In this document: positions 29,306 through 43,795 of the stretch, in pieces | Numbering within the stretch: the stretch's first letter is position 1 | How the letters are laid out: each line of letters starts with the position of its first letter | From: Desulfobotulus pelophilus | GTDB taxonomy: Bacteria; Desulfobacterota; Desulfobacteria; Desulfobacterales; ASO4-4 | Direction: 5' to 3' | DNA: 47,580 bases | Assembly (NCBI RefSeq): GCF_026155325.1 | Contig: NZ_JAPFPW010000022.1 | Coordinates: 1 to 47,580, forward strand | Notes under the pieces: generated by a model | The model's database searches: none | What the model saw: the letters and a program-made list of their open reading frames with translations, nothing else | What the model was told of the DNA's origin: nothing | Program-made: the position numbers and the translations under genes

Positions 29306-30487
29306 TTATCGTCTTCGTCGTAGACGTTCAATTGACAGTTTTAAGCTGTCCTGCATTCGGGAAATGGCATCCGCAAGGTTGCCGATTTCATCATTGGAAC
29401 GAACCTGGATTTCCATATCAAGCTCACCCACACTGATCCTGTCGGCTGCATCGGTCAGATATTTGATGCTGCGGGTAATTCGGTAGCCGTAAACAGAAAT
29501 GGAAAGACCTATAATCACAAGGGATACGGCGAGGATAATCAGCGTAACGTTACGTGTATGAAGCGCCATGGCATTGGCTTCTGTTTCCAGTACCCGCACG
29601 GGCTCCGTAAAGTCGTCGATATAGGCCGTTGCCATAATGTGGTACCGGGTACCCTCCACTGGGCTGATAACAGCAAATTTCTGCCGGAGCTGACCGTCCC
29701 TTTCCACCCATGTGTAATATCCCCTTGCTTCCCGCAACCTTGTGGCATCCTCGATAATTCTTCTGAATTCAGGATAGTACTGAGGCCCCAGTGCCTGCTG
29801 CAGACTGTCAAGAACCGGTACGCCGATGATGCGGGCATCGGGATGGGCCCAGATACGAAAGGCCTGGTCACTTTGATCCGGTGCTGGACGTTCAAACAGA
29901 ACCGTGTAACCGGAATCCGCAACACGCTGCACGGCAATGCGGCTGAATTCAGGATCATAATTGAAATCCATTTTTCCCAGCTCAGGGTGGCTGCGCAGGA
30001 AAATATTCGACTGAAGGGCAACGGAACGGGCTTTTTCCGCAATGATTTCTTCGGCCATACTCTGTACAACATGGGTACTTTCCGTTGTTATACGTGCGGA
30101 AAGATCATTGAGTTGGTTTTGGGAAAACAAGCCGGAAATTGTCATCAGAAAAAGGGGGACAAGCAGAAAGAGAAAAAACATTTTTGCCCTGAGCCCGAAG
30201 CCTTTGCGCCGGTCCGCGTCTTCAACAATCGCTTTTTTAGAGACTTTTTTTCTCGATTCCTTCCGAGGCTCGTCAAAGGATGTCATTTCAGCCTTTTCCT
30301 TTGCTTCGTACTTGGCGGGAACACTCTTCGGGGGGGGGGCTGCGACCAGCTGTTCCCTCGTCACAAGCATAACATGACCACACTCCCGGCATCGGGTTCT
30401 GGCCTCATCTCCGGCAAGCTTTTCTTTAAGCTTTTCCGGATCCAGATGATAAATTTTACCACATTCTTCGCAGATTAGAGTTGTCAT
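29306..30487 (-). CDS. Zinc-ribbon membrane sensor with Cache-like domain and HAMP, no output domain
   Basis: 393 residues: an MJ0042-type zinc ribbon (C6, C9, C33, C36), a charged Lys/Glu linker to about 100, transmembrane helix 1 (about 102-121), an extracytoplasmic Cache-like sensor (about 125-310, with DSGYTVLFE and AHPDARIIG), transmembrane helix 2 (about 313-335), and a HAMP domain (336-388) that ends the protein at a basic tail. Histidine kinase, cyclase and methyl-accepting domains are absent. Signals must therefore pass through the HAMP to another protein or through the zinc ribbon. GGAGGAGATAGC precedes the ATG. Confidence 0.85.
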   Translation of the reverse strand: MTTLICEECGKIYHLDPEKLKEKLAGDEARTRCRECGHVMLVTREQLVAAPPPKSVPAKYEAKEKAEMTSFDEPRKESRKKVSKKAIVEDADRRKGFGLRAKMFFLFLLVPLFLMTISGLFSQNQLNDLSARITTESTHVVQSMAEEIIAEKARSVALQSNIFLRSHPELGKMDFNYDPEFSRIAVQRVADSGYTVLFERPAPDQSDQAFRIWAHPDARIIGVPVLDSLQQALGPQYYPEFRRIIEDATRLREARGYYTWVERDGQLRQKFAVISPVEGTRYHIMATAYIDDFTEPVRVLETEANAMALHTRNVTLIILAVSLVIIGLSISVYGYRITRSIKYLTDAADRISVGELDMEIQVRSNDEIGNLADAISRMQDSLKLSIERLRRRR

Positions 30488-31840: not shown

Positions 31841-32452
31841 TTATTTTTCCTCCAGCTTTTTTTTAAGGGATCCAATCGTTATAGAGATAATTTTTTTCAT
31901 GGTTAAAGCCACATTATCTCCTGTGATTGCGCTGGCTTCGATGTAGGGAGCATTGAGCGTTGAGTTGAGATCCTGCTGCATGGTTTCAAGGGGCAGAAGA
32001 GAGATGTTGTGCGAAGCAAGGTCTCGTTTATTATACTGGAATACCAGTGGAATTCTGGCAAGATCTTTATTGAAGGAACGAAGGTTCTCTTCGAGATTCT
32101 GCAGGGAGCGGATATTCATATCCCGTCTCAGCCCCATGGAATCTGCAACAAAAACAATACCGTCCACACCGCGAAGGACAAGTTTGCGGGTGGCATTGTA
32201 CTTTACCTGACCCGGCACGGTGTAGAACTGTATTTTAATGTTATAGTCATTAATAGTACCGATATCGAGGGGAAGAAAATCAAAGAAAAGCGTTCGGTCA
32301 CCATAGGTTTTAACCGTAACCATTTCCGATTTGATACGGGCCTTGAATTTCTGATTAATGTATTCGAGATTCGTTGTTTTTCCACCTCGGCCGGGTCCGT
32401 AATATACAATTTTAACCTGGACTTCTTTTTTTTTGGGATTAATCAGCGCCAA
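31841..32452 (-). CDS. MglA-type Ras-like GTPase (copy 1)
   Basis: 203 residues of the bacterial MglA family. P-loop GPGRGGKT (19-26), switch region and strand VKTYGDRTLFFDF, G3 region FYTVPGQ, G4 NKRD and G5-like ASAITG. MglA in Myxococcus sets cell polarity for gliding and type IV pili and is controlled by Roadblock proteins. The start is TTG at 32452 with GGAGG 6 nt upstream. A Roadblock gene sits 19 bp before it, as in mglBA. Confidence 0.92.
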   Translation of the reverse strand: MALINPKKKEVQVKIVYYGPGRGGKTTNLEYINQKFKARIKSEMVTVKTYGDRTLFFDFLPLDIGTINDYNIKIQFYTVPGQVKYNATRKLVLRGVDGIVFVADSMGLRRDMNIRSLQNLEENLRSFNKDLARIPLVFQYNKRDLASHNISLLPLETMQQDLNSTLNAPYIEASAITGDNVALTMKKIISITIGSLKKKLEEK

Positions 32453-32471: not shown

Positions 32472-32867
32472 CTATCCGAAAAGGGATTCGATTTTTCTCA
32501 CGGCTTCACTCACTTTCAGCCGAAGAAAGCCCAGTGAGACTTCTTTACCGAAAATGGAAAGAAGAAGCAGGTCGTCGGTTACTTTGCTGAAGTGGATGCT
32601 GTCTGTCTCCCCTTTGTGAAAAAGGAGGGAAAATTCCTGTTCTCCTATCAGGTTGGCCATGGCGCTGACAGCACCGAAGTTCCCTGCTGCAAGGGCGGCC
32701 AGGGAGTAAACGTCATGCTGGGTATTCCCATTGTCCAGATTGACAATGACGTTGCCGGCAAGATCCAGCAGAATCACGTTGCTTACACCGAGATCGATCA
32801 GTTCTTCATCCAGAATCTTTTCAATCTTTTCAAGCTGATGCTTGTCCAAATCTAAGGTAAAGTCCAT
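32472..32867 (-). CDS. Roadblock/LC7-domain protein (MglB-like)
   Basis: 131 residues: LEKIEKILDEELIDLGVSNVILLD then NVIVNLDNGN, LAALAAGNFGAVSAMANLIGE and a closing helix; the standard Roadblock pattern, as in MglB, the activator of MglA GTPase. It precedes the MglA-type gene by 19 bp and is the first gene of the long operon. GAGGAAGGG precedes the ATG. Its promoter should lie in 32868-33000; I see no clear box there. Confidence 0.9.
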   Translation of the reverse strand: MDFTLDLDKHQLEKIEKILDEELIDLGVSNVILLDLAGNVIVNLDNGNTQHDVYSLAALAAGNFGAVSAMANLIGEQEFSLLFHKGETDSIHFSKVTDDLLLLSIFGKEVSLGFLRLKVSEAVRKIESLFG

Positions 32868-34784: not shown

Positions 34785-36875
34785 TTAAGGCCGGATTACA
34801 AGGCGAAAACCGATGTTGGCATAGGCGGCGGAGGGTTCTGCCGTGTGACGGTTAGCAATGCGCGCAGCATCCATATCCGTATCCCACCCACCTCCTCTGA
34901 TAATTTTTCTCTGACCTGTGGCTGGACCGGAAGGGTCTGAAGATTCCCCATCGCCGGAGGGATAGTCCGCATACCAGTCACGGCACCACTCCCATACATT
35001 GCCATGCATATCCCGAAGGCCCCAGTCATTGGGAGCCAGGGCTCCTACGGGCATGGGCTGTTGACGATAGCTGCCGGCCGGACAACCTGACCGGAATGAA
35101 TTGGCAGCAAAATTTGCCTGTTCCTGAGTCAGGCAGTCCCCATAGGCATAGGTTGTCTGACTGCCAGCTCTTGCTGCATACTCCCACTCCGCTTCGGTGG
35201 GAAGGTCATAGAAAAGTCCCTCTTCTTGGCGCATCCACTGTACAAAAGCCTTTGCATCATTGTAGGAAACGGCACTTACGGGAAAAGAATCCTCAATGGC
35301 ATATCCTGGCTGCTTCCAGTTGTACGCAGGATCGCGGACCCAGCGGAATCCGTTTTCCAGGGCAAAAGCTCCTGGGCCCGTTTCTGCCTCCGTCCTGTAT
35401 CCTGTAGCCGTGATGAAGCGTTTCCACTGCCCGATGGTAACTTCTTGTTCCTGCATAAAAAAAGGTTTTGTGATGAGTACCTGATGTTGTGCTTCATCTG
35501 CCTTTCTCCGGGTTTCTCCCCCGGAACTACCCATGGTGAAACGACCACTTTCTATCCTCAGGAACCTCATCTGAAGTTCGTTTTCAAAAGAAGGCAAAAG
35601 AGTCAGTTCCACGTGAATGTTCTTTTTTTCACCGGCCCGGATGCTGATATTTTTTTCCAAGGTTTCATGGAGAGGCGCTTGGAAGCGAAGTGCATGAATG
35701 CCCGGGGCCAGTGGCAGCTCCGGCCTGTAGCCATGATCCTTATCCATAAATTCAATATGTGTATTTTCTGGCAATGTTCGAATCAAAAGAAAACCTTTTT
35801 CTGGTCTTCTGGCAGAGAGGAACAGGGAGAGCTCCCTGGATTCCCCGGAAGACAGCAAAATTTCTTCGCTGAAATCCTCATAGCCCGAAGCACTGGCCTC
35901 CACACGATAGCGCCCTGCATCCAGTCCTGTTATCTGCAGCGGTCCGGCTCCACGATCCTGCCCGTTGATTCGTATCCGGGCTTCTTCAACATTCGTTCGT
36001 ATTCCAAGGTGTGCAGCAGGTTCTTTTTCCGGCGTGTGCACCTCCGGGACAGACTTTTCACGGATTGCGGTGCTGAAAACAGGATCTCCGGTAAAGGGCT
36101 GACCTGTTGTAAGATTACGATATTCCAGTCTGCCACCGAGCCCCTCCGCTTCCTGTGAAAGAGCGGTGAAAATTTCGTATCCGCTGAAGCTGGCCCCTTT
36201 CGATGACAGTACATGGAAAAGGGATGACACCAGAAGACCTGTCGGGCCTTCGGAAATAATGGCATTGCCTGATGACCTGTACAGAACCGTATGGGCAAAC
36301 CCACCGGAATCTTTATTCGAGAGTTGTGCACTTTCCTGGGTGACAGGGTCACCGCAGGCTGATTCGGGAAAAACTGTGTCAGAAATCAGAAAGATGCGTC
36401 TGGCAGCGGCCTGACGCAAAATTCGCTGTACGGATCCGATGTCCACCCAGGTCTGTGAGTCTGAATGAACGGCATCCGTTCCCAGCCACCATCCGTATCC
36501 ATAAAGAGTTTCGACTTCCGCAGCGCCCGCGTAATAAATCAGAAGTGCATCTTCTGGGGCCGTATTTCTGGCAGCGGATTCAAGAGCAGTCATGATGGCT
36601 TGTTTTGAGGCAGAAGAGCCGGAAATTTTTGTAACCTGAAACCCGAGTTTTTTTTCAAGAAAAGCGGCCATGGCGTCTGCATCGGCTTTGGCTGTGACCG
36701 GCGCTTGAATATCTTCATCCGTATACGTATGGACCCCAATAATCAAGGCCCTGTTCTCAGCTGCAAAAACAACAGTAACTGTCATTATCAGCAGCAGACC
36801 GCTGAGTATCGGTATAAGCTGACGGCAGAATGCCATAGCAGGTATTCTGGCTGAATATGATTGCAATTTCATCAT
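34785..36875 (-). CDS. Secreted pseudocaspase-PEGA-FGE-fold protein
   Basis: 696 residues: a signal peptide (to about 39), a caspase/C14-like domain (about 40-265), two PEGA beta-sandwiches (about 288-355 and 358-428), and a FGE/sulfatase-modifying-factor (C-type-lectin-like) domain (about 435-696, with GRFTMGSS, LPTEAEWEYAARAG and MHGNVWEW). The caspase dyad is absent: the His position in IYYAGA is Ala118 and the Cys position in LISDTVF is Val168. The FGE domain lacks the copper-binding Cys pair near GGGWDTD. It is thus probably a binding or structural protein of the cell surface or periplasm, not a protease or FGE oxidase. AGGGGA precedes the start. It ends an envelope cluster. Confidence 0.88.
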   Translation of the reverse strand: MMKLQSYSARIPAMAFCRQLIPILSGLLLIMTVTVVFAAENRALIIGVHTYTDEDIQAPVTAKADADAMAAFLEKKLGFQVTKISGSSASKQAIMTALESAARNTAPEDALLIYYAGAAEVETLYGYGWWLGTDAVHSDSQTWVDIGSVQRILRQAAARRIFLISDTVFPESACGDPVTQESAQLSNKDSGGFAHTVLYRSSGNAIISEGPTGLLVSSLFHVLSSKGASFSGYEIFTALSQEAEGLGGRLEYRNLTTGQPFTGDPVFSTAIREKSVPEVHTPEKEPAAHLGIRTNVEEARIRINGQDRGAGPLQITGLDAGRYRVEASASGYEDFSEEILLSSGESRELSLFLSARRPEKGFLLIRTLPENTHIEFMDKDHGYRPELPLAPGIHALRFQAPLHETLEKNISIRAGEKKNIHVELTLLPSFENELQMRFLRIESGRFTMGSSGGETRRKADEAQHQVLITKPFFMQEQEVTIGQWKRFITATGYRTEAETGPGAFALENGFRWVRDPAYNWKQPGYAIEDSFPVSAVSYNDAKAFVQWMRQEEGLFYDLPTEAEWEYAARAGSQTTYAYGDCLTQEQANFAANSFRSGCPAGSYRQQPMPVGALAPNDWGLRDMHGNVWEWCRDWYADYPSGDGESSDPSGPATGQRKIIRGGGWDTDMDAARIANRHTAEPSAAYANIGFRLVIRP

Positions 36876-36972: not shown

Positions 36973-38145
36973 TCATTCCGTAAAATGGGGGTTTTCATCC
37001 ATCACAGACCGGTTTTGCCCCCCGCTTATGATGGCGTTTTTTCCGCCAGCTCTGTTTTTTCGTCCTCCGACAGTGGCAGAAAAATCACCATCCGCACGGT
37101 TCTCTTCACCGCCAATGGCCAGAGCGGCCTGGCCGGAAACGGTGTTGTCTTTGCCTGAAACCGCAGCACCATATACACCTGTCACCTTATGCCCGCTTCC
37201 GGATATAAGACTTCCATATCCACTGCAGCTGTGATTATCACCCACCAGCATATTGTGGGATCCCGTAACATTCTGAAGCTTTGAGTAGCCAATTACAAGG
37301 TTGCCGGTTCCATTGGTGCTGGCTGTTTTACCCTCACCATTTACCAGAATAAGATTGATACCTTCCAGCTGAAGATTGGATCCTGTGCGCTGTACGCCTT
37401 CCAGAAGCCTTGTCAGGTGAGCCACCTGGGCTTCAAGGGTGGCAATTCTCTGATGAAGATGAACACCTTCCCCGCCAGCAGCCACCACACCACCCACCAG
37501 AAGAGGCTGAACCAGACTGATGTCGGCTTTATTTTCAAGGGCAGCGGTCAGCTCAGACCGCCTCACCAGTGAAGAATCAATGCGCTCTGCGGGGAGAACA
37601 CCGCTAAGGTTGGCAAGGTCGTGGGTATGATTTCTGTCCGCTTTTTCTGAAAGCATCTGCTTCCATCTCCGCTGCGTAAAGACAGGCACACAGTCCGTAA
37701 TCCCCATTTCCCGAAAATAACCACATATCCCTGCATCATCGATACGTTCATAGGTGGCAATATCCGTAGGGCCCACGAAAAAGAGATAGGGAAAGTTTCT
37801 CGGAATGATAAGGCTGGAAGCACCCCGCTCAAAAAGAACCATGGCAATGGCGGGAGTATCCGGAGAAATGGTTGCCTTATAAGCAACGGCCGCATACTTG
37901 TCGCTAAGGTCAAAAAAATCCCGTATGCCCTTTACTGTCACATCCCTTCCCCGTCGGGACTGACGTTGTACCACCTGCTGTCTCGCCTGAGCCAGTGCCT
38001 GCATAACGGATTCCGTGTCTTCCAGTTCCAGCAGTACGGACACTTCGCGTTCGGACTGTACGGAGGTTGCTCCGGCCGGTGTGCCCGCTACGGCCCATGC
38101 GAAAACCCAAAGGCCAACCATGGTGAAAAATGCCCTGCGTCTCAT
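36973..38145 (-). CDS. Secreted protein with tail-fibre-like stalk and YadA-like head repeats
   Basis: 390 residues: a signal peptide (to about 26), an unassigned N-terminal domain to about 170, a segment like phage tail fibres (HTHDLANLSGVLPAERI), a short heptad coil (IATLEAQVAHLTRLLEGV), and about 100 residues of 14-15-residue YadA-head repeats (GSHNMLVGDN, GAAVSGKDNTVSG, AALAIGGEENRADG). YadA heads are normally N-terminal and held by a C-terminal barrel; here they are at the C-terminus with no anchor. A trimeric adhesin or fibre is likely. The ATG at 38145 has GGGGGG upstream. It lies between the porin and the pseudocaspase gene. Confidence 0.78.
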   Translation of the reverse strand: MRRRAFFTMVGLWVFAWAVAGTPAGATSVQSEREVSVLLELEDTESVMQALAQARQQVVQRQSRRGRDVTVKGIRDFFDLSDKYAAVAYKATISPDTPAIAMVLFERGASSLIIPRNFPYLFFVGPTDIATYERIDDAGICGYFREMGITDCVPVFTQRRWKQMLSEKADRNHTHDLANLSGVLPAERIDSSLVRRSELTAALENKADISLVQPLLVGGVVAAGGEGVHLHQRIATLEAQVAHLTRLLEGVQRTGSNLQLEGINLILVNGEGKTASTNGTGNLVIGYSKLQNVTGSHNMLVGDNHSCSGYGSLISGSGHKVTGVYGAAVSGKDNTVSGQAALAIGGEENRADGDFSATVGGRKNRAGGKNAIISGGQNRSVMDENPHFTE

Positions 38146-38228: not shown

Positions 38229-39476
38229 TCAGAAACTTACGGTCATCTTGGCAGCAAAGAGGAACCAGTTTTCGGAAGTGTTCAGGATATTGTTTTCTGA
38301 GTTGATGTCCTTCATCAGAATGGCGGCACCGTTCATGGCATGGCCTTCCAGCTTGAACACCCAGTTGGGGGTGAGATCAAAGCGTGCGGTGAGGGCCAGA
38401 TCCTTCAGCCAGGCGTCGTGGTCCTTATAGCCTGCAGCAATACGATTTTGATCGGTTTTGTTTTTATTACCGTCCCTGTCATCCTTGTCCGCATAGTATT
38501 CCGAATAGGAAAGACCCATTTCCAGCCAGTCCGTAAAGCGGTAGCCCATGGCTGCATAGTAGCCTTCGGTATTCAGTGTATTTGTTTGATTTACCAGGTT
38601 ATTTGAGAATTCATACCGGTTGCCCATGTATTCTGCCGCAAAGGTGAAGGAGCCAAAGATATACTCAAGAGATGCTGTATAGGCTTTGGATATTGTATTG
38701 GCACGAAAATCTAATATTTGACCGCTACCGCCAAGGTATAAATCAGCATCCGTATCAAATTCAACTATCCAGCCAGTTGTGCTCAGCCGAAGACCATTCA
38801 CAGGGGTGGACCAGACAAGGCCACCGGCATAGCTGTGTTTTGTGTGAGTGGACCTGGGGTCAGCGCGGTTACCCTCAAGCTTGGCCTGGTCTTTCAGTGT
38901 CGCCACGACCCCGCCGTCAGTGGGAAAATCAGCCTCTCCACCCTGAAACTGATAGGTAAGGGAGCCGGCATTGCCCATATAGATATCCCCGTACACCTCG
39001 GCACCGGTAATGGATGAAACCGTATCCCTCCAGGCCTCGTTGTATACACTCTGGGGAAGGAAAATGCTGGTACGGAGCATGTCGATGTCACGGGTGGTAT
39101 TGTAAAGGCCGTGGACCATTTTCATTTTACCAACACGAAGGCCCATCCAGTCTCGCCACCGGTAATCGGCAAAGGCCCAGTCAATTTCAGGATCGCCTTC
39201 TCCAAACTCGCCAAGGTTCCGGCCGAGAATCTGCAGACCCACGCGGAGCTGATCACTTACCTGGCTGCTGATATTCACCCCGAATTCATTGAAACGGGCA
39301 CTTCCGTCTTCGGTTTTGGCAAAAAAGTTGTTGTTGTCACTTTTCAGGTAGCCCTGAGAGATAAAACCATGAACCGTGACACCACCAAAAAGGTCGTCAC
39401 CAAATTCAACGGCCATTGCCGGAAATGCCATGCATAACAGGCCAAGCCCGAGCATGAGTCCCTTCAGCGTTTTCAT
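38229..39476 (-). CDS. Outer-membrane porin
   Basis: 415 residues with a signal peptide (to about 22, AMA), then about 16 amphipathic strands with Asp/Asn turns and a final aromatic residue (KMTVSF). The N-terminal VTVHGFISQGYLKSDNN is usual for general or phosphate-type porins. AAGGAGGCTTT precedes the ATG. The small binding-protein gene lies 49 bp upstream on the same strand, a pair seen elsewhere, and suggests that the porin serves that solute. The substrate is not shown by the sequence. Confidence 0.85.
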   Translation of the reverse strand: MKTLKGLMLGLGLLCMAFPAMAVEFGDDLFGGVTVHGFISQGYLKSDNNNFFAKTEDGSARFNEFGVNISSQVSDQLRVGLQILGRNLGEFGEGDPEIDWAFADYRWRDWMGLRVGKMKMVHGLYNTTRDIDMLRTSIFLPQSVYNEAWRDTVSSITGAEVYGDIYMGNAGSLTYQFQGGEADFPTDGGVVATLKDQAKLEGNRADPRSTHTKHSYAGGLVWSTPVNGLRLSTTGWIVEFDTDADLYLGGSGQILDFRANTISKAYTASLEYIFGSFTFAAEYMGNRYEFSNNLVNQTNTLNTEGYYAAMGYRFTDWLEMGLSYSEYYADKDDRDGNKNKTDQNRIAAGYKDHDAWLKDLALTARFDLTPNWVFKLEGHAMNGAAILMKDINSENNILNTSENWFLFAAKMTVSF

Positions 39477-39525: not shown

Positions 39526-39951
39526 CTAGGGTGTAATGCCCAGAACCTTCACCTCATCCGTCCGGGTTCCTTCCGGAACAAAGCCGATGGCTCCCTGAGT
39601 GTTGGCAACGTAGGTGACCATATCACTGGCTCTGCCCATGGCCGGAGGCATCTGCCCCCTTCCTGTGAAAACCTGACGCTTCCAGTGCTGGTCAAACTGG
39701 GATGCAGACATTTTCACATAGTCAGACAGAAAACCCTCCATGGTGTCGCCCCTGAGAACGGCAAAATTGATCCGGCTGCCGTCTTCCCACCGGCTCATTT
39801 GGCCACGGTAGATACGTTCCACCTCGCTTTTGGAAATGGTGGCCACTGGCACACTGCGGTTGGCGATGATCAGGACATCTGCCAGGGCATGCCCTGTGAA
39901 GCCCGCCAAGAATAATAGGATCAGGGCTCCTATCCGTACATGCTTCATCAT
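39526..39951 (-). CDS. Small phosphate-type periplasmic binding protein
   Basis: 141 residues: a signal peptide (to about 24, ALA), then ADVLIIANRSVPVATISKSEV, RIYRGQMSRW and VKMSASQFDQHWKRQVFTG, the PstS-like PBP pattern. It is half the size of PstS and may be a one-lobe or dimeric form. The ATG at 39951 follows AAGGGGAG; a second Met comes directly after. No permease is near. It probably works with the porin 49 bp downstream. Confidence 0.82.
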   Translation of the reverse strand: MMKHVRIGALILLFLAGFTGHALADVLIIANRSVPVATISKSEVERIYRGQMSRWEDGSRINFAVLRGDTMEGFLSDYVKMSASQFDQHWKRQVFTGRGQMPPAMGRASDMVTYVANTQGAIGFVPEGTRTDEVKVLGITP

Positions 39952-41569: not shown

Positions 41570-41932
41570 CTATATATATTCTTCAAATCGTTGAATAAAA
41601 AGGGACAAAAGCCTTGCCTTCGGACCCGTCATAGGCAAAAAAGCAAAGCCTATATAGATAGTACCCTCCCGGGAAGTTCTTATATGTGCTGTAATGGCAT
41701 CCAGTTCAAGAATATCGTCCTCTATGCCAATGGACAGCTGTACACGGGAACCTTCGGGAATGGGGGTGTGAATTTCCAGAAGCACACCTCCCCGGCTGAT
41801 GTTCAGGGTTTTTCCCATCCCCTGAAGAATAAGGCCTCCCCGATCTCCCAGAACAAAAAAGTGAACAAGATTCCGGGTTTCCGGACGAAAGATAAAACGC
41901 CTTTTTTCAGATTGATTCCGGGTCTGTGTCAT
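41570..41932 (-). CDS. PilZ-domain protein (copy 2)
   Basis: 120 residues: RRFIFRPE (RxxxR c-di-GMP motif) and NISRGGVLLE (second motif), then the beta-barrel to the C-terminus. It has no other domain. I chose the ATG at 41932 with GAGGAAA upstream; it overlaps the end of the preceding gene by 26 bp. An ATG at 41950 has no SD. It probably reads c-di-GMP for the neighbouring GTPase or cNMP protein. Confidence 0.88.
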   Translation of the reverse strand: MTQTRNQSEKRRFIFRPETRNLVHFFVLGDRGGLILQGMGKTLNISRGGVLLEIHTPIPEGSRVQLSIGIEDDILELDAITAHIRTSREGTIYIGFAFLPMTGPKARLLSLFIQRFEEYI

Positions 41933-43073
41933 GGCTTTTTCCTCTGACATCTATGGATTCTCCAATGAGCTCCAGGGTTGTCTGCACCGACTTCAGGGAA
42001 AAACCCAGCATTTTTCTGAACGTTGGTGAGAGCCTGTCCCAGAGCATGCCCGCATCTGCATCGCTTACCGGTACAATGGATGTATGACTGTCTCCCATAA
42101 AAACAAGGCCATCGATGGCAAGGGGGTTACCCGCCATGGGGTGGGCAAGGATACTGTCTTCGGCAAAAGATGCCAGTTCCCATGTGACGTCTTTCCCTTT
42201 ATAGGCCAGAATGGCCCGCCCTCCCTTTACACAGAAAAAAGATCCTGAAGAAAGGGTGCCTGAGGCCTGCAGGACAGTCCATGATTTCGGTATTTCCGAA
42301 GACAGGGAAAGGGACGACCGAAGCCTTGCGAGAGTTTCGCCAAGCTGAGTCAGTTCTTTGTCCACATCCAGAAAAAGCTGCTGGAAAAAAGGAGAAAAAG
42401 TTGTGTATTCACGGGCGAGCCTCTGGGCATCCAGAACTCCCAGCAATACCTCACCAACCGCATGTACGGATGCATTTCTGGGGCGATTCATGAGGGAAAA
42501 AGTGGCAGCGCTTCCGATAAAAGCACCCTTGCCAAGGCAGAAAAGGGGTATGCTCCGCCCCCCTATTTCCCTGTGGGTGCGGACTTTCCCCTCCAGAATA
42601 ACCCATAGCCATGAACCAAAACGCCCCTGACGCACCACCACGCTGCCGTCCCGGTGGAACTCTTCATCGACAATATCACTGTACTCAATGGATGGGCCTT
42701 TGAGAAAGGGCTCTTTACCTGACGAGCTGTGATGAAAGGACTGTTCTTCCCGGGACTCATCCACCCGGCGGAGAGCATCCAGAAGAAGCCCTGTGAGATT
42801 TCGGTGGATCTCTCTGGAAGCTGGGCCAGTCCCCGGAAGAAAAAGGAAATCCCCATCCTGCCAGGTAAACAGTTCATGGAAAGCCTTTTCACCGGAAAGT
42901 CCCCCCTGGCGGGCATCAAAAACATCTCCGTTTTTCATGTTAATGACACCTTCCGCACCATTTTCCGCAAAAATGCGAACCTCACCACTGGCTACAGCGG
43001 TTCCGAGAAACTGAAGAAGGTCAGCAAGACTGATAAAAGACAGCTTGCCTGAAAGGACGTCTGATTTTGGCAT
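41907..43073 (-). CDS. DUF4388 / cyclic-nucleotide-binding domain protein
   Basis: 388 residues: a DUF4388 domain (about 8-110, LSGKLSFISLADLLQFLGTAVASG split in two parts, NGDVFDARQGGLSGEKAF), then a cNMP/CRP-like beta-roll (about 130-250, VVVRQGRFGSWLWVILEGKV and GKGAFIGSAATFSL), and a second beta-rich part to about 370. No helix-turn-helix follows, so it is not a CRP-type transcription factor. The ATG at 43073 has GGAAA; a TTG six codons earlier lacks an SD. It lies 41 bp after the GTPase gene. Confidence 0.85.
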   Translation of the reverse strand: MPKSDVLSGKLSFISLADLLQFLGTAVASGEVRIFAENGAEGVINMKNGDVFDARQGGLSGEKAFHELFTWQDGDFLFLPGTGPASREIHRNLTGLLLDALRRVDESREEQSFHHSSSGKEPFLKGPSIEYSDIVDEEFHRDGSVVVRQGRFGSWLWVILEGKVRTHREIGGRSIPLFCLGKGAFIGSAATFSLMNRPRNASVHAVGEVLLGVLDAQRLAREYTTFSPFFQQLFLDVDKELTQLGETLARLRSSLSLSSEIPKSWTVLQASGTLSSGSFFCVKGGRAILAYKGKDVTWELASFAEDSILAHPMAGNPLAIDGLVFMGDSHTSIVPVSDADAGMLWDRLSPTFRKMLGFSLKSVQTTLELIGESIDVRGKSHDTDPESI

Positions 43074-43114
43074 CGGTATTTCCAGAATCAATCATGGCCG
43101 TTTACGGACAGACT

Positions 43115-43732
43115 TTATTTTTTCGCCCAGTCCAGTTCTTTCTGCAGATGTCTGAGTGTGCTTTCTATGCAGGCTTTGAGTGTCTTTCCAACCCCTTCTC
43201 CGGTTACCGCACTGGCGGCAAAGGAAGGAACCTTCAGCTGGCGGTTGAGATCCCTTTCCATCTGAGCAATGGACATGACGGGCAGCCCTTCTCTGGCCAG
43301 GTCCCGCTTGTTGTACTGCATGACCAGAGGAACCCGTGCGATATTCAATCCGTAGGATTTGAGATTTTCATGCAGATCCTTCAGGGAGAGCATGTTTTTT
43401 TCCCTGCGAACCGTAAGGGAGTCAGCAACAAAGACAAGGCCATCCGCCCCTTTCAGAACCAGTTTTCGCGTAGATGCATATTGGGGCTGGCCGGGAACGG
43501 TGAACAGCTGTACCCTGACATCGCAGCCATGAATCTTGCCAAGCCCCATGGGCAGAAAATCAAAGAAAAGGGTCCGGTCTCCCTGAGTATCGATGGAAAC
43601 CAGCTCTCCTTTCATATGCTTCCGGAAAAGTTTGTGTATGGTTTCGAGGTTGGTTGTTTTACCGCATCGGCCCGGGCCATAGTAAACAATTTTACATTCA
43701 ATGACCCGTTGCTGCATGTTAAAAACGGCCAT
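43115..43732 (-). CDS. MglA-type Ras-like GTPase (copy 2)
   Basis: 205 residues. P-loop GPGRCGKT (19-26), GDRTLFFDF, TVPGQPQ, NKRD and ASAVTGEGV, clearly related to copy 1 at 31841-32452 but with Cys in the P-loop. No Roadblock gene is next to it; the regulators may be the DUF4388/cNMP protein or the Roadblock proteins of the other operon. GGAGGGTCTTT precedes the ATG at 43732. Confidence 0.92.
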   Translation of the reverse strand: MAVFNMQQRVIECKIVYYGPGRCGKTTNLETIHKLFRKHMKGELVSIDTQGDRTLFFDFLPMGLGKIHGCDVRVQLFTVPGQPQYASTRKLVLKGADGLVFVADSLTVRREKNMLSLKDLHENLKSYGLNIARVPLVMQYNKRDLAREGLPVMSIAQMERDLNRQLKVPSFAASAVTGEGVGKTLKACIESTLRHLQKELDWAKK

Positions 43733-43795
43733 AAAGACCCTCCAGAATTCCGTTACTCCAACCATGACAATCCGCTGGGACCCTATGGGAAAACA

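Follow-up and report, generated by a model that had tools for sequence, protein, structure and literature searches.

The window considered here, a stretch of 47,580 nucleotides from Desulfobotulus pelophilus, carries on its minus strand a gene (34785..36875) for a protein of 696 aa, called the pseudocaspase below, in which a caspase-fold domain, two PEGA stretches and an FGE fold are joined in one chain. The explanation that we favour, at a probability of roughly one half, is that this protein is exported, has no catalytic activity and serves for docking or as a structural part, and that it works as the closing member of an envelope module of four genes. The module is the strongest functional clue to the protein, and one that goes beyond the initial annotation of this DNA. 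In the open-licence literature searched, neither the module nor its tie to the loss of the catalytic dyad was found in print; pseudo-orthocaspases, caspase-FGE fusions and a dead FGE fold that acts as a hub are already known. As the gene order ties a divergent dead lineage to three envelope proteins here, its job is open to test. If the docking role is true, this would be a second case of an FGE fold recruited as an envelope hub, and the caspase fold would be a structural part outside the cytosol.

Two enzyme folds without their catalytic residues

The pseudocaspase ORF is preceded by a GAGGGG box that ends 5 nt from the ATG and opens with a signal-peptide-like start (residues about 1-38, 36762..36875, minus strand, as are all domain coordinates given here). 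Such a start, lacking a lipobox, was found in all 13 module pseudocaspases read by script (the cut copy of genome G590 was left out); the call was made by eye and with a hydropathy script rather than with a trained predictor. The caspase-fold domain spans residues about 41-271 (36063..36755) and is followed by a first PEGA domain (residues 290-353, 35817..36008, Pfam PF08308), a second PEGA-like domain listed by Pfam and modelled mainly as strands (residues about 359-424, 35604..35801, boundaries by eye) and the FGE-fold domain (residues 438-693, 34797..35564, PF03781). Export as claimed in the initial annotation is thus in keeping with the start of the protein, while the further statement that it acts 'at the surface' is not supported, as no lipobox occurs in 13 orthologues and no anchor was seen. 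Periplasm and secretion are indistinguishable from such a start, and a periplasmic location would be as likely as one at the surface.

Pfam Peptidase_C14 does not list the pseudocaspase even at E<=1, and the NCBIfam family caspase_w_EACC1, whose cut-off is 140 bits, matches residues 42-182 (2.6e-11) with 43.4. The caspase fold is nonetheless real. When three copies from the same genus were compared by hhalign with eight active relatives, the two alignments matched at 99.9% (E 9.9e-32), and a profile of nine orthologues run against the PDB recovered metacaspase-1 (1e-7). Eight of the 13 members of one alignment (A1) do match Peptidase_C14 at E<=1, and matches to this family include both a dead copy (L094, 1.1e-6) and an active one (L092, 2.4e-21). 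The structure prediction that the initial annotation had proposed as a check gave the same answer: an AlphaFold2 model built on a 9-row alignment reached a mean pLDDT of 70.9 (35 for a single-sequence prediction), with values above 80 in 11 of the 13 ten-residue blocks at its N-terminal end, and aligned with MALT1 (VIA-align) at Z 21.5 and rmsd 2.6 over 196 residues, in a PDB structure search confined almost wholly to model residues 1-234, the caspase part.

The catalytic residues are another matter. The hhalign comparison pairs GHG of the active relatives with GAA and DSC with DTV, which places Ala118 (codon 36522..36524) at the position of the catalytic His and Val168 (36372..36374) at that of the Cys, exactly as first numbered. 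Alignment of the orthologues, also proposed at the outset, shows both residues to be absent in 14 of 14 module ORFs, the window's included, where A, R, S, Q, Y or K stands in place of the His and P, T, S, A, V or L in place of the Cys (the alignment around the L, which is that of L062, is prone to gaps, and the residue could also be read as S). A complete dyad at shifted positions, which would have overturned the first interpretation, was looked for with hhalign and by conservation and was not found: the only His and Cys residues in the window's caspase domain are H49, H137, C174, H195 and H221, and none of these is conserved across the 14 module proteins, the best being H195 in 3/14. The Asp that precedes the Cys position (D166 in the window protein) is kept in 11 of the 14. 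The Asp of the S1 pocket (D65) is kept in 7/14, as against 11/11 of the closest active relatives, and its loss in the remainder argues for the docking reading; D65 was equated with Asp95 of TbMC2 by eye, via the metacaspase-1 sequence, and the pocket roles are those given in the relevant part of PMC6426788. As read from these alignments, the domain has the fold of the caspase/orthocaspase (C14) proteases without their His-Cys dyad, and in its p20-like fold with replaced dyad residues it corresponds to a pseudo-orthocaspase.

According to the part of the bacterial orthocaspase survey drawn on here (Klemencic et al. 2019, PMC6426788), 858 of 9,994 orthocaspases, about 9%, lack one or both dyad residues; 90% of these pseudo-orthocaspases occur in Alphaproteobacteria and Cyanobacteria, and the commonest cyanobacterial pairs are Tyr/Ser and Tyr/Asn. 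The window protein shares with them a p20-type caspase fold without the dyad, but it carries Ala/Val, comes from the Desulfobacterales, has an export-like start, belongs to a four-gene module and is too divergent for Peptidase_C14.

The FGE fold is present (Pfam FGE-sulfatase, residues 438-693, E 1.1e-55; PDB FGE, 3.1e-27), yet the copper-binding catalytic Cys pair is missing, and the protein has no Cys past residue 631. The catalytic positions are T666 and A671, aligned with the CxxxxC pattern of a relative (L010) that we take, from the known FGE motif, to be the catalytic pair; a PDB alignment was also used for this equation, and has a gap at that point. Because the model is of low confidence at mature residues 615-648 (ORF residues 652-685), the loss of the pair is called from sequence. 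The absence of the cysteines noted in the initial annotation is confirmed, as is its wider statement that two enzyme folds without catalytic residues lie in one protein. The FGE half of the observation is ordinary, however, since 40 of 41 aligned FGE domains lack the pair and only one keeps both Cys in a column-based survey of loci chosen by likeness to the window pseudocaspase; the other FGE genes found in the genome of the window lack it as well (3/3). The relative used for the alignment (L010, 1468-3486, genome G050) is itself a caspase-PEGA-FGE protein of export-like kind; it retains the CxxxxC pair of the FGE domain as well as the His-Cys dyad, and it possibly comprises two live enzymes in one chain. 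Fusions of metacaspase and FGE-sulfatase domains in one chain have been described, with 33 among 671 in one study (Asplund-Samuelsson et al. 2012, PMC3501461); the window protein differs from what is described there in having PEGA between the two domains, in that both folds have lost their catalytic residues, and in its dedicated neighbours.

A four-gene module in the Desulfobacterales

Four genes follow one another on the minus strand, in the order PstS-like protein, porin, beta-roll companion and, last, pseudocaspase. The small PstS-like protein (39526..39951, 141 aa from an internal ATG) resembles PF12849, with a match that is below the cut-off in the window and above it in L142. The OprO/P-like porin (38229..39476) matches Pfam Porin_O_P at 1.4e-5, while Pfam recognises nothing in the L141 copy; both genes owe their assignment in part to conserved order. 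The companion (36973..38145) is an exported-looking protein of 390 aa from its listed ATG, and lies directly upstream of the pseudocaspase with a gap of 97 nt. It is built of an N-terminal domain, a coiled coil and a C-terminal beta-roll, the last of which matches the head of UspA1 (PDB profile, 2.8e-13). The likeness to UspA1/YadA-type adhesins lies in these repeats. In the companion the head is C-terminal, after the coiled coil and the N-terminal domain, and a Pfam scan at E<=0.1 gave nothing beyond LbR_Ice_bind and a weakly matching phage tail repeat. The C-terminal YadA-type barrel anchor that marks a type V autotransporter was not found in that scan. The UspA1-head-like C-terminus speaks for the docking reading.

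All four genes stand in this order in 12 of 14 genomes (window, L141, L142, L146, L147 and L227-L233), a fixity of order that also speaks for docking, and contig ends cut the module in the other two (L145, L236). L142 has an extra porin ahead of the set, and a longer antisense ORF overlaps the beta-roll ORF that is present in L230 and in L231. In a fifteenth genome, G479 (L148/L238), the first three genes are followed by the contig end. None of the other three module genes was found at the active-relative loci L234 and L235. The genus of the window genome sits in the Desulfobacterales; G001 belongs to the same genus, and the companion of L141 is 66% identical.

Matches in 389 genomes of the order include 18 complete companions, 16 of them full-length matches and two of them complete ORFs matched in two pieces (G019:C15 and G083:C289, loci L143 and L144), and 14 of the 18 adjoin a dead caspase. 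Beside the remaining four (L143, L144, L149, L150) the caspase profile finds no match, so the companion is not always in need of the pseudocaspase, which weighs against a docking role. Of 395 genomes sampled from the phylum, only the window genome and G022 gave companions of full length at E<=1e-10. The porin (E<=1e-20) occurs in 39 of 155 genomes of the order and the PstS-like protein (E<=1e-8) in 41 of 155; by their listed coordinates the two are often adjacent (uncounted), and the pair is therefore a wider unit. That many genomes have porin and PstS-like protein without companion or pseudocaspase likewise counts against docking.

Among signals in the DNA itself, a hairpin between companion and pseudocaspase does not clearly exceed shuffled sequences in stability (z -1.19), no RNA family reaches its gathering score in the window, and promoter-like and terminator-like sites number 3 (5.6 expected) and 13 (7.2 expected). 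Some related arrangements occur elsewhere. The four companion relatives without a caspase match have other neighbours, and those of L149 and L150 come after a gene in the BLAST cluster of the window's Cache-HAMP gene (29306-30487). In genome G015 a companion relative with most of the beta-roll absent (L128, 1339-2430) follows a porin and a 190-aa protein, and the PstS-like protein and the porin are multiplied there, with at least 25 and at least 11 matches respectively.

Loss of the dyad and the companion gene

Wherever the companion lies directly upstream, in 14 ORFs from 14 Desulfobacterales genomes (the window included), both dyad residues are gone (14/14), whereas 35 of 37 ORFs with at least 400 nt of flank and no companion keep both. 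This contrast is among the points in favour of a docking role, although the 37 are the best-scoring loci among the matches listed, found partly with a profile made from dead copies, which weakens it. As only the best matches of the lists were fetched, dead copies without the companion could exist among the others. Moreover, the loci from named genomes come from a contig search with the companion alignment (A2), which favours companion carriers. Three pieces of viral contigs are among the active relatives. There were 64 countable ORFs, that is 69 less five (L050 and L053, unreadable as caspases, two fragments and one truncated), and 13 further active ORFs with upstream flanks below 400 nt were left out of the 37.

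The two exceptions, one with the His only (L015, H/S) and one with neither residue (L011, N/P), are half-dead or dead without a companion and count against a strict link. They (L011, 1501-3510; L015, 1492-3420) belong to a separate caspase-FGE lineage that is losing the dyad, with no companion in the flank seen.

Phylogeny limits how much the association can bear. The 14 dead and 11 active rows fall in one well-supported clade (100/98; 99/97 in a second tree). In the second tree the dead rows form two groups, the first gives them no resolved deeper branching, and the AU test does not reject a tree that unites all dead rows in one clade (p 0.168). Independent comparisons number one on well-supported branches and three on all branches. 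Loss of the dyad and gain of the companion may thus be one or two events only, and the correlation is for this reason of little statistical weight, a further point against the docking reading. The link is complete in direction for companion carriers, yet rests on one or two events.

In the close pairs tested, purifying selection acts on the dead caspase domain, with dN/dS of 0.07-0.26 in seven unsaturated pairs; those involving the window protein are saturated. In one pair (L097/L098) the caspase domain gives 0.106 and the FGE domain 0.121, and in another (L002/L003) the values are 0.257 and 0.088, so that in the latter the dead domain is under weaker constraint than the FGE domain. A constrained dead domain is what the docking reading would expect, and its laxity in L002/L003 goes the other way. 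Of the roles first proposed, a non-catalytic scaffold or binding protein fits the absence of the dyad in 14/14 and the purifying selection, whereas a glycan ligand is not supported.

Possible roles of the pseudocaspase

The precedent for a docking role is PorK, a Cys-free FGE fold that is a structural docking hub at the outer membrane (as described in part of PMC12421860). With PorK, GldK and GldJ of type IX secretion and gliding the window protein shares an exported-looking FGE fold without catalytic cysteines; it differs in its added caspase and PEGA domains and in its phylum, and while PorK is a lipoprotein, no lipobox was read by script in 13 pseudocaspases of the window type, which tells against the parallel. 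No PorL/M/N-like families were found among 21 window proteins scanned with Pfam. In favour of the precedent, the GldK/PorK profile matches the pseudocaspase at 1.1e-29, with 103.9 bits, short of its cut-off of 350. On GldK the active relative L092 does better, at 122.9 bits; the likeness to PorK is common to the FGE superfamily, and this too must be set against docking.

In the favoured docking scheme, the dyad would have been lost in the module lineage and the caspase fold retained for binding or assembly, the FGE fold without Cys would act as a docking hub as in PorK, and the PEGA domains might be spacers or envelope contacts. Most likely the pseudocaspase would hold, cap or present the beta-roll companion beside the porin at the outer membrane, a physical complex and an envelope location that we infer. 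A bolder version, offered tentatively and with distinctly less confidence than the docking role itself, is that the four genes encode an undescribed Desulfobacterales envelope apparatus, in which an exported, trimeric beta-roll fibre would be assembled or presented beside the porin by a protein with two dead folds; the caspase would be structural, the FGE hub independent of the T9SS, and catalysis lost as the protein joined the module.

The main rival of the docking reading, which we consider possible and a little less probable still than such an apparatus, is a receptor, an extension of the ligand or glycan receptor of the initial annotation. Outside the cytosol, the groove of the dead caspase and the FGE fold, which is C-type-lectin-like, would capture a peptide or a sugar and hand it on to porin and PstS-like protein for uptake. 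It is suggested by the fact that the module starts with a solute-binding-like protein and a porin, and by FGE-fold proteins that bind ligands, such as the Treponema variable protein (PDB match 2y3c). Across the 14 proteins, however, neither the S1 Asp nor the dyad positions are constant, and hence the old caspase groove is not a family-wide conserved binding site; nor was a diversifying element seen, the genome having no reverse-transcriptase match. A variable protein of a diversity-generating retroelement was considered separately and rejected (PF00078, no matches in the protein's own genome, which is 97.66% complete; matches in 3 of 14 control genomes).

That the protein has kept an enzymatic activity, whether through a different mechanism or through substitute residues, is improbable. 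A Ser stands at the Cys position in orthologues L116, L142 and L145, but the range of residues at both dyad positions across the 14 and the want of any other conserved His or Cys in the window's caspase domain tell against it. Slightly more doubtful again is a c-FLIP-like decoy or inhibitor that would act on an active caspase in its own cell, a role for which the part of PMC3501461 cited here offers a basis, in that caspase homologues free of catalytic residues can regulate active ones. The same 97.66% complete genome has zero Peptidase_C14 matches, with a profile that misses divergent members, the pseudocaspase among them, and the protein is exported-looking and encoded with three envelope proteins. 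Decay of a gene without function, to which the long branches of the dead lineage might point, can be dismissed as very improbable, since the frames are open in 14 genomes, the operon position is fixed and the dN/dS values contradict it.

Apart from the docking reading, one feature of the surroundings deserves mention. The module is flanked in the window by genes for Ras/MglA-like GTPases, a roadblock protein, a PilZ protein and a DUF4388 protein (31841-32452, 32472-32867, 41570-41950, 41907-43091, 43115-43765), a block that hints at a tie to polarity, motility or adhesion. A block resembling it is found close to the module in L141, judging by BLAST clusters, and a like one in L228 and L229, judging by ORF starts only.
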